Assembly: GCF_001590835.1 (NCBI RefSeq)
Contig: NZ_LTAQ01000070.1
Location: 147,088-199,562, forward strand
Source of the DNA: Bacillus gaemokensis
GTDB lineage: Bacteria; Bacillota; Bacilli; Bacillales; Bacillaceae_G
Direction of reading: 5' to 3'
Length of the DNA: 52,475 nucleotides
Below, one piece after another: positions 28,792 through 30,720 of this stretch (its first letter is position 1; every line of letters begins with the position of its first letter). Under the pieces are notes generated by a model. It was not told the DNA's origin. It was given only the letters and a program-made list of their open reading frames with translations, and ran no database searches. The position numbers were made by a program, and so were the translations under genes.

Positions 28792-29349
28792 TTACGCTTC
28801 TTTTAAGTGATGTGTATCTTGGAATGTAGTGTCACGCATTGTTGCAAGTGTATATTGATCTTTTGAAATTTCATATAAATTATATACTTCCTCGTTTGCA
28901 TTAATTTGATCATAAACAACTTTTCTTGTTTCATTTGCTAGGTTTACATATTGAATCTTTTCAGCAGCTTTAATAGAGCGAATGTTTACTTTACGAATGC
29001 GCATAAAGATTGTTTCAATATCTAATTCATAGAAAAGTTCACTGAAAAAAGCATCTTTGGCTAATTTATTATAACCCTGGCCATGATATGGTTTGCCAAG
29101 CCATGTACCAAGAAACCCAGCCTTTTCTTGCACATCAAATAAAGTAATCGTGCCGATGGGGTTTCCCCATTCATCTAAAATTGTACGTGAAATCAATTCA
29201 CCACGCTCTTCGGCTTCAATTGTTTGTTTTGTTAGAAATAAAAATTCTTCGTATGAATAAGCCTTTTGACGCACAAAAGGGAAGACAGCTGGATCCACCA
29301 TTAAATCGTATAGAACGTGGCTGTCGTGTAAGTCGCGTTTTTTTAACAT
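28792..29349 (-). CDS. GNAT-family N-acetyltransferase
   Basis: The 185-residue protein has the RimJ/RimL-type GNAT fold that moves acetyl groups from acetyl-CoA to an amine. Family features are the N-terminal LHDSHVLYDLMVDPAVFPFV, the central strand GNPIGTITLFDV, the acetyl-CoA loop WLGKPYHGQGYNKLAKDAF, and NIRSIKAAEKIQYV near the end. The substrate is unknown. The ATG follows GAGGAGGAGTTAGT. Its leader is remarkable: promoter, hairpin, tRNA-like fold and an overlapping terminator lie between 29381 and 29580. That layout suggests expression is controlled by attenuation, possibly sensing charging or protein binding of the tRNA-like RNA. Confidence 0.8.
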   Translation of the reverse strand: MLKKRDLHDSHVLYDLMVDPAVFPFVRQKAYSYEEFLFLTKQTIEAEERGELISRTILDEWGNPIGTITLFDVQEKAGFLGTWLGKPYHGQGYNKLAKDAFFSELFYELDIETIFMRIRKVNIRSIKAAEKIQYVNLANETRKVVYDQINANEEVYNLYEISKDQYTLATMRDTTFQDTHHLKEA

Positions 29350-29380
29350 ACTAACTCCTCCTCACATGAGGGTAGCATGA

Positions 29381-29438
29381 CGAAAAAACACCCACCCTCG
29401 AAATTTTTATATCAATCTTTAAAAAATTTCGGGGTGGG
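29381..29438 (-). terminator. Intrinsic terminator overlapping the tRNA-like fold
   Basis: On the minus strand CCCACCCCGAAATTTTT (29438-29422) pairs with AAAAATTTCGAGGGTGGG (29408-29391), 17 bp with one bulged A and a 13-nt loop, followed by TGTTTTTT. The first nine bases of its 5' arm are the T-arm and acceptor 3' strands of the tRNA-like element, so the two cannot form together. Confidence 0.85.
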
Positions 29439-29494
29439 AATCGAACCCACTAGAACCAGTCTATAACGCTGGTGGCGCACCATTTGCCTTCCCC
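29430..29494 (-). ncRNA. tRNA-like RNA in the acetyltransferase leader
   Basis: The 65-nt minus-strand segment folds as a short tRNA. The acceptor is GGGG (29494-29491) with CCCC (29434-29431); the D-like arm is GGC-9 nt-GCC; the anticodon arm is CCAG...CTGG with a C-A mismatch and loop GTTATAG (anticodon UAU if canonical); the T arm is TGGG-TTCGATT-CCCA. The T loop is canonical. The acceptor is too short for a normal tRNA and no CCA is encoded. The B. cereus group is reported to have a tRNA-like small RNA, tRNA(Other), that can be lysylated; from memory this may be it, but I cannot confirm identity. It is preceded by its own promoter. Confidence 0.65.
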
Positions 29495-29496
29495 AT

Positions 29497-29536
29497 TAAT
29501 CAATTTGAAAGGAACAATCACGACACAAATTGATTA
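29497..29536 (-). promoter_or_regulatory. 5' leader hairpin before the tRNA-like element
   Basis: TAATCAATTTG and CAAATTGATTA form an 11-bp perfect stem with an 18-nt loop. It ends two nucleotides before the acceptor GGGG of the tRNA-like fold. Confidence 0.7.
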
Positions 29537-29550
29537 TGGTTTCATTCAGT

Positions 29551-29580
29551 TTATAATCGTATAATACTGTATCTAGTCAA
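29551..29580 (-). promoter_or_regulatory. Sigma-A promoter of the tRNA-like leader
   Basis: TTGACT (29580-29575) and TTATAA (29556-29551) are separated by 18 bp on the minus strand. The -35 box starts 10 nt after the stop codon of the upstream amidohydrolase gene. Transcription would start near 29544. Confidence 0.6.
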
Positions 29581-29589
29581 AAAAATAAA

Positions 29590-30720
29590 CTAGTTTTTTT
29601 TATTTTTTTTGTAAATTATTTTTCCATCAATCATAGTTAGTACGGGCTTGGATAAGTAATGAAATGGATGATGAGTCCATAAAACAAGATCAGCATCTTT
29701 TCCTGCTTCAATACTACCAATTCTTTTCTCTAAACGTAAATTTCGAGCTGGGAGAATTGTAATACCTTCTAGTGCAATTTTCTCATCTAATCCTTCCCTG
29801 ACAGCGATGGCTGCACAAACATTTAAATATTGGATTGGCGTATAAGGATGGTCTGTTGTGATCGAAACTTCTATCCCATGTTTTGATAAATTATGGTATG
29901 TAACCCATGACTTATTTTTTAATTCGATTTTTGAACGACGTGTAAGGGTTGGACCAACAGAGACCTTTAAGTTGTGCTTGGCGAGCTCGTTTACAATGAA
30001 GTGTCCTTCTGTACAATGTTCAATACGTAAATCAAGATTGAATTCTTTTGCAAAGCGAAGGGCCGAACTAATGTCATCAGCGCGATGTGCATGAATACGT
30101 ACAGGGATTTCACGGCGCAGTGCTTTTAGAATAGGAAGCATTCGAAAATCAGCATCGTTTCCATAGTGTTGTGCTTCATAGAAAGATTCGCGAAGTAAAC
30201 CCATAATGCCCATACGAGTAATGGATTCTTTTGTGCCATTACTGTGAACACGTTTTGGATTTTCTCCAAAGGCAATTTTTAAGCCGGCGGGTTCTTGAAT
30301 AATCATATGATCGATACAAGTTCCAGCAGTTTTAACTACACATGTGGTACCACCGATAATATTTTGACTTCCTGGCATAACATGGACAGTTGTAATCCCG
30401 TTTTGAACAGCATCTTGAAAAGCGATATCAAAAGGATGGATGCCGTCTAAAGAGCGGATATGTGGTGTTAATACTTCAGATGTTTCATTAGCATCATTTC
30501 CTGCCCATCCAGTCCCTTCATCATATAGTCCAAGGTGAGTATGCACATCGATAAATCCCGGTAGAAGGTGAAGAGCTTTTGCGTTAATAACGGTCATATC
30601 TTGAGTCGGCTCAATATGTGGTTGTACAGCAGTAATTTTTTCTTGTGTAACTAATACATCTCCTTGAAACTTTGGAGAGGTAATAGGATATACAATGGCT
30701 TGCTTGAGTAGTATTTTCAT
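29590..30720 (-). CDS. Amidohydrolase-family metal-dependent hydrolase
   Basis: The 376-residue cytoplasmic protein has the amidohydrolase TIM barrel with metal ligands in order: DVHTHLG (about residues 58-64), RIHAHRADD, RIEHCTEGH and ITTDHPY. The C-terminal part IGSIEAGKDADLVLW is typical of imidazolonepropionase/dihydroorotase relatives. The substrate is unknown. Its ATG at 30720 has only a weak upstream purine tract. It has no obvious terminator before the promoter of the acetyltransferase leader, so readthrough is possible. A bcr1-like repeat lies just upstream. Confidence 0.8.
   Translation of the reverse strand: MKILLKQAIVYPITSPKFQGDVLVTQEKITAVQPHIEPTQDMTVINAKALHLLPGFIDVHTHLGLYDEGTGWAGNDANETSEVLTPHIRSLDGIHPFDIAFQDAVQNGITTVHVMPGSQNIIGGTTCVVKTAGTCIDHMIIQEPAGLKIAFGENPKRVHSNGTKESITRMGIMGLLRESFYEAQHYGNDADFRMLPILKALRREIPVRIHAHRADDISSALRFAKEFNLDLRIEHCTEGHFIVNELAKHNLKVSVGPTLTRRSKIELKNKSWVTYHNLSKHGIEVSITTDHPYTPIQYLNVCAAIAVREGLDEKIALEGITILPARNLRLEKRIGSIEAGKDADLVLWTHHPFHYLSKPVLTMIDGKIIYKKNKKN

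Follow-up and report, generated by a model that had tools for sequence, protein, structure and literature searches.

A tRNA-like leader element upstream of a GNAT acetyltransferase gene in Bacillus and its relatives, most likely a translational switch

The window analyzed here is a 52,475-nt stretch of the Bacillus gaemokensis genome. On its minus strand an amidohydrolase gene (29590-30720) is followed by a GNAT N-acetyltransferase gene, and the leader that separates them contains a tRNA-like fold and a long helix with one strand in common (Table 1). A first-pass annotation had proposed that the two structures compete for this strand, and sequence and folding agree on this point. The long helix is unusually stable (−23.1 kcal/mol, z −4.8, with none of 200 shuffles equally stable), and the stability of the 78-nt tRNA-like segment by itself is ordinary (z −0.45; 62 of 200 shuffles fold equally well), so that the case for a real tRNA-like fold is comparative, resting on the 80 of 80 related loci described below. 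The first 20 nt of the element occur once in the window, against 0 expected. Two upstream features had also been pointed out. The promoter sequence TTGACT-18-TTATAA is present, yet TTATAA may not be the −10 that is kept, since a block resembling AGTATNATA recurs in relatives, lying upstream, within 175 nt and at varying distances, in 113 of 149 leaders when one mismatch is allowed, as a raw count. The hairpin 5′ of the tRNA-like fold is seen in the window and in close relatives, but it is no general feature (for 141 upstream stretches the mean z is −0.33), and we rejected it as a part of the element.

Table 1. Features of the GNAT leader, with positions in the window
Feature	Position	Strand	Basis or remark
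Promoter-like TTGACT-18-TTATAA	29580-29551	-	sequence
Candidate -10-like block AGTATTATA (AGTATNATA in many relatives)	29560..29568	-	recurrence in relatives
Hairpin of 10-11 bp just 5′ of the tRNA-like fold		-	sequence
tRNA-like domain, GGG (29493) to CCC (29431)	29431..29493	-	sequence, Rfam tRNA model, covariation
Acceptor GGG/CCC	29491-29493 with 29431-29433	-	3 bp only
D arm	29474-29488	-	part of tRNA-like domain
Anticodon-like arm	29455-29473	-	part of tRNA-like domain
T arm GTGGG-TTCGATT-CCCAC	29434..29450	-	sequence, folding, compensatory changes
T-arm 3′ strand and acceptor CCC	29434-29438 and 29431-29433	-	strand common to both folds
Long helix CCCACCCCGAAATTTTT / AAAAATTTCGAGGGTGGG	29438-29391	-	followed by TGTTTTTT
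A/U-rich stem GAAATTTT / AAAATTTC, variable loop	29400..29430	-	in both folds; covariation
Switch strand X GAGGGUGG / GAGGGTGGG	29391..29399	-	partner is the T-arm strand (OFF) or the anti-SD (ON)
TGTTTTTT after the long helix	29383..29390	-	makes the window helix terminator-like; rare among relatives
Strand Y CTACCCTC, the anti-SD	29368..29375	-	partner is X (ON) or the SD (OFF)
Shine-Dalgarno (SD) GAGGAGG of the GNAT gene	29357..29363	-	sequence, predicted pairing
GNAT N-acetyltransferase, 185 aa, start codon at 29349	28792..29349	-	PF13302, E 2.4e-12

Scanning named genome contigs for relatives of the GNAT protein yielded 284. We kept the 80 best, and the element lies upstream of the GNAT gene at every one of these 80 loci. 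Genera in their titles include Ectobacillus, Anoxybacillus, Cytobacillus, Neobacillus, Evansella, Priestia, Sutcliffiella, Metabacillus, and Mesobacillus; the highest GNAT identity among them is 83%, the close kin of the window being absent from this set. A covariance model was trained on 36 sequences, the window and 35 of the loci, which match it by construction. The window scores 111.4 bits with it, a value that is not independent, as the window is 1 of the 36 training sequences. A weak match on the plus strand opposite the element (29279-29438, 25.3 bits, E 7.5e-4) is what a near-palindromic helix is expected to give. In ten chosen genomes, 22 matches at E ≤ 0.01 comprised 3 strong and 19 weak ones, and because all 19 weak matches proved to overlap tRNA genes, only matches at E ≤ 1e-9 were counted as the element.

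The model gave one match each in 19 of 19 genomes of one family, a few of which had fed it. In a sample of 299 genomes from one order it matches 252 at E ≤ 0.01, 225 strongly (E ≤ 1e-9) and 27 weakly (E 1e-4 to 1e-2); at most 35 of the 225 can have been a source of its training sequences. The GNAT (E ≤ 1e-20) is present in 229 of the same genomes, so distributed that 225 have element and GNAT, 4 have the GNAT alone, and none has a strong element alone. In the four GNAT-alone genomes (G051, G092, G169, and G248) the protein is 50-60% identical and no element was seen upstream. A wider draw, of 398 genomes from the class, gave 34 with a match at E ≤ 1e-5. Directly downstream of the element, the GNAT gene is found in 99 of 99 strong model-found loci (97 distinct sequences), these being the best matches of each search and not a random draw. 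Conservation of the downstream gene, proposed in the first-pass annotation as a check on the leader, is thus seen in the protein-found and model-found sets alike.

Some copies depart from this arrangement. Genome G093 has three elements, two with GNAT genes and a third (L137) that retains an SD with no GNAT gene found within the surrounding 1.6 kb, and in genome G202 a second, paralogous GNAT copy (L140) lacks the element that the other copy (L139) has upstream. In 69 of the 79 loci with enough sequence, the gene that immediately precedes the element-GNAT pair encodes an amidohydrolase, and the two enzymes may share a compound. A mobile origin was considered and rejected: we found no match among 50,697 phage records and a single one in 72,556 plasmid records, on a 690-kb replicon of Cytobacillus spongiae (L227) that keeps the amidohydrolase-element-GNAT order.

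The two folds were compared across 149 distinct leaders, a set that excludes L137, L140, and L142-L145, which have no element-GNAT pair, and L181, L183, L188, and L190, which were missed by the first pattern. The T stem pairs in all 149, including the compensatory forms GTAGG:CCTAC (4 leaders) and ATGGG:CCCAT (1 leader), and the anticodon-like arm varies in sequence and length with its pairing kept, with compensatory pairs at arm positions 4 and 5. Pairing of the T-arm strand with X over at least 5 bp is possible in 148 leaders; in 130 X also pairs with the anti-SD over at least 5 bp, and in 102 both helices are joined by an anti-SD:SD helix of at least 3 bp. Covariation was measured on a 64-leader alignment (A5), from which 17 of the 149 had been removed by length and the rest by similarity of at least 0.90, with slid controls in which pairing partners were moved by 1-3 columns. 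In the ON fold, the one that contains the tRNA-like domain, 97.2% of cells are paired (slid controls, ≤60.0%), 51 cells show changes on both sides (shuffled mean 7.1; slid, ≤28), and the covariation score is 0.129 (slid, ≤0.061). None of 500 shuffles reaches the ON fold on any of five measures, and its 12 compensatory pairs are matched by slid versions (9-14). The D stem and acceptor never vary in these 64 leaders, and their pairing thus carries no covariation evidence.

For the OFF fold, the one with the long helix, 87.1% of cells are paired, with 30 compensatory cells (slid, ≤26) and 8 compensatory pairs (slid, ≤11). Most of this signal comes from the A/U stem common to both folds (95.1% of cells paired; both-sided changes in 5 of 8 pairs), T-arm:X hardly varies, and the anti-SD pairs with the SD in 68% of cells, one pair being out of register. 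Compensatory changes had been sought for both structures; judged by sequence comparison, covariation gives good support to the ON fold and thin support to the OFF fold. Strands X and Y are also seen to change together: GGACAG occurs with CUGUCC in L161, GGGUGGCG with CGCUACCC in 12 leaders of the L095-L107 group, and L181, L183, L188, and L190, read by eye, are one base longer in both strands. The L095-L107 group, removed from the alignment by its length, consists of thirteen leaders, probably from Priestia, with extra sequence inside the A/U-stem loop, mostly with further hairpins. In five other leaders (L163, L166, L186, L187, and L192) the anti-SD seems, by eye, to have moved, and CACCCUC(C), complementary to X and the SD, lies nearer the SD.

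Folding predictions connect these structures to the SD. In the window, the predicted probability that the SD is paired is 0.06 with the tRNA-like fold forced and 0.80 without it, and over the 149 leaders its mean is 0.457 in ON and 0.771 in OFF, against 0.649 and 0.749 in linker-shuffled controls (in the ON run, the acceptor of thirteen leaders, L095-L107, was placed one base out). For 54 cluster representatives the difference is 0.339, compared with 0.095 in shuffles, and 42 of the 54 exceed their own shuffles (p 9e-7, the rows being related). The SD is freer in ON in 132 of 149 leaders; the change is above 0.1 in 112 and above 0.3 in 77, is at most 0.1 in 32, and has its sign reversed by more than 0.1 in five (L044, L062, L138, L172, and L175). 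Some leaders have no relay through an anti-SD: the SD lies inside strand X in L173, and the T-arm strand pairs the SD region in L179, L182, and L191, so that all four pair the T-arm strand with the SD region and reach the same sign by a second route. In 45 of the 54 representatives the two folds differ by no more than 5 kcal/mol in predicted energy, and the median of ON minus OFF over the 54 clusters is +1.2 kcal/mol (controls, −5.7), a near equality as expected of a switch. In the window alone the OFF fold is favored by 4.4 kcal/mol, in an energy model that leaves out elbow contacts; such pair energies take no account of tertiary contacts.

The mechanism we propose has two mutually exclusive folds that would use the T-arm 3′ strand in common. 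With the tRNA-like domain folded, X would be free to capture the anti-SD and the SD would be open (ON); with it unfolded, the T-arm strand would take X, the anti-SD would fall on the SD, and initiation would be blocked (OFF). A factor that stabilizes the elbow, formed by the D loop and T loop together with the invariant D and acceptor stems, would then be predicted to switch the gene on. Taken together, the element is real and widespread in leaders and is most likely a translational switch with a tRNA-elbow sensor; we consider it quite probable that it acts in cis, as an RNA switch in which a mimic of the tRNA elbow is the sensor. Comparison and computation support the fold, the linkage, and the predicted sign.

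Intrinsic termination had been suggested as the regulated output of this leader. Such an attenuator, with the tRNA-like fold as antiterminator and the long helix as terminator, is suggested by the TGTTTTTT that follows the helix in the window. A stem of this kind is possible in 148 of 149 leaders, but five or more consecutive T within 12 nt of the long helix occur in only 5 of 148, the window included (27 of 149 by a looser count of 5 T in 8 nt), and so termination is not the conserved output. What is kept instead is the anti-SD with its pairing to X and, as the output, SD exposure. We accordingly rejected a conserved intrinsic terminator and regard transcription attenuation as a decidedly unlikely account of the element. 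In the lineage of the window itself, the OFF helix with its U-run may terminate transcription too, with the same sign, as an added layer.

The likeness to tRNA is clear in the elbow and ends there. The T arm in the window has the canonical loop that had been noted, and the D-loop GG and T-loop TTCGA elements are invariant in three alignments (A1, A3, and A5), but the acceptor is merely 3 bp, against the 7-bp stem expected of a tRNA gene. The Rfam tRNA model (RF00005) matches positions 5-66 of 71 at 23.6 bits (E 0.01) and does not reach its gathering score of 29, ARAGORN finds no tRNA in the window, and no Rfam 15 family matches the window or any of 9 loci at gathering score. The anticodon-like arm takes 100 distinct forms of 11-21 nt in the 149 leaders, with no fixed anticodon and with CCA within the arm in two of them. 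A tRNA gene was rejected on these scores, the short acceptor, and the variable arm. The first-pass annotation had also proposed that charging or tRNA processing sets the switch, which is unlikely given the lack of a fixed anticodon, the 3-bp acceptor, and the absence of a CCA end from the window. All 17 positions of the T arm agree with those of 3 tRNA-His genes out of 156 tRNA genes compared, and the best local scores of the element are with tRNA-Gly and tRNA-His genes; on these sequence comparisons we did not adopt descent from one tRNA.

These resemblances, such as the shared T arm, are also what a stand-alone small RNA or tRNA pseudogene would show, its terminator overlapping and the GNAT gene lying downstream by chance. 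This simpler alternative, raised from the outset, is very improbable. At every model-found locus the element continues into the anti-SD, SD, and start codon of the same gene, matched changes extend to the anti-SD, and near-invariance would not be kept in a pseudogene.

The GNAT protein belongs to the Acetyltransf_3 family, and 74 aligned relatives are 43-84% identical to it. Profile matches in solved structures include MccE (E 1.2e-7), RimJ/RimL-like proteins, and spermidine acetyltransferases; MccE acts on aminoacyl-nucleotides. A further lead to aminoacyl chemistry, which is not a result, comes from NF040702, a family of IleRS with a GNAT domain, matched by 49 of 75 members of the GNAT family at E ≤ 1 (best, 6.5e-9), with single members far below the cut-off. 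Six of the 10 members shown match, at profile positions between 288 and 462, a stretch that is mostly the part left unmatched by the IleRS rows listed for 61 genomes and that presumably sits about where ordinary IleRS has its CP1 editing domain. The window protein has no NCBIfam match at E ≤ 1, NF040702 included.

As the trigger of the proposed translational switch we tentatively rank first a small molecule tied to the GNAT substrate, and after it a protein that binds the tRNA elbow, which we consider more doubtful. A rival reading, in which the GNAT is a tRNA-binding protein that also recognizes the mimic on its own mRNA, much like ThrRS and the thrS mRNA, would suit the exclusive linkage to one gene, the MccE acetyltransferase as nearest solved relative by profile, and the NF040702 matches. 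This autogenous control seems improbable, however: stabilizing the tRNA-like fold would turn the gene on, which is the wrong sign for negative feedback, the protein is acidic (pI 5.4, charge −6), and no NCBIfam match is obtained for the window protein. Ionic or polyamine sensing, in which high polyamine would stabilize the tRNA-like fold and turn on a polyamine acetyltransferase, has a sign that suits feed-forward control, and both the acidic protein and the spermidine and diamine N-acetyltransferases among the profile matches (E 5e-5 to 2e-3) are consistent with it. These matches are weak and mixed with other GNATs, and plain ionic sensing has no obvious need for an invariant D stem, acceptor, and T-arm sequence; we judge this reading unlikely as well.

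The best-known tRNA-related control in Firmicutes is that of the T-boxes, which bind real tRNA. In the present case a tRNA elbow is part of the mRNA itself; it hardly varies across 149 distinct leaders and seems to be the moving part of a translation switch. The finding poses an easily tested question, namely what holds the elbow shut, and would give a clue to what this conserved acetyltransferase does. A description of the element was not found in Rfam 15 or in the literature searched, subscription papers lying mostly outside that search, and we do not claim that it is absent from print. It is possible, if still uncertain, that the element represents a new class among ligand-responsive leader RNAs: its sensor, a tRNA elbow without acceptor and anticodon, would open the ribosome binding site of a single gene family, and the element is present in three quarters of the genomes taken from one order.

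Among known systems, T-box leaders (RF00230) are likewise Firmicute leaders that involve the tRNA shape, and X contains AGGGUGG, presumably the start of the T-box sequence. They differ in that the tRNA-like part is here the leader itself. A T-box leader was rejected for the window, as RF00230 was not matched at E ≤ 10 in 29300-29650 and AGGGTGGNACCGCG, which we take to be the T-box sequence, does not occur in the window even when 3 mismatches are allowed. The thrS mRNA operator of E. coli mimics an anticodon arm, to which ThrRS, the synthetase under its control, binds; like the present element, it is a tRNA-mimicking leader domain that controls translation of the downstream gene. The present element differs in its variable anticodon-like arm, its fixed elbow, and its gene, which encodes an acetyltransferase. 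With translational riboswitches the element shares a conserved sensor domain, mutually exclusive helices, an anti-SD/SD expression platform, and near-equal predicted energies of the two folds, the exposing and hiding of the SD by such folds being found here by computation only; it differs in its tRNA-like sensor, in the single gene family seen beneath it, and in a ligand that is only presumed. Finally, the first-pass annotation had raised identity with tRNA-Other of B. cereus, also a pseudo-tRNA within a longer RNA in a Bacillus. tRNA-Other has a Trp anticodon (CCA), flanks a genomic island, and is part of transcripts that reach hundreds of nucleotides to both sides (PMC3399842), and on the first two of these grounds we set this identity aside: the anticodon-like loop is not fixed in the element described here, which leads into one acetyltransferase gene.
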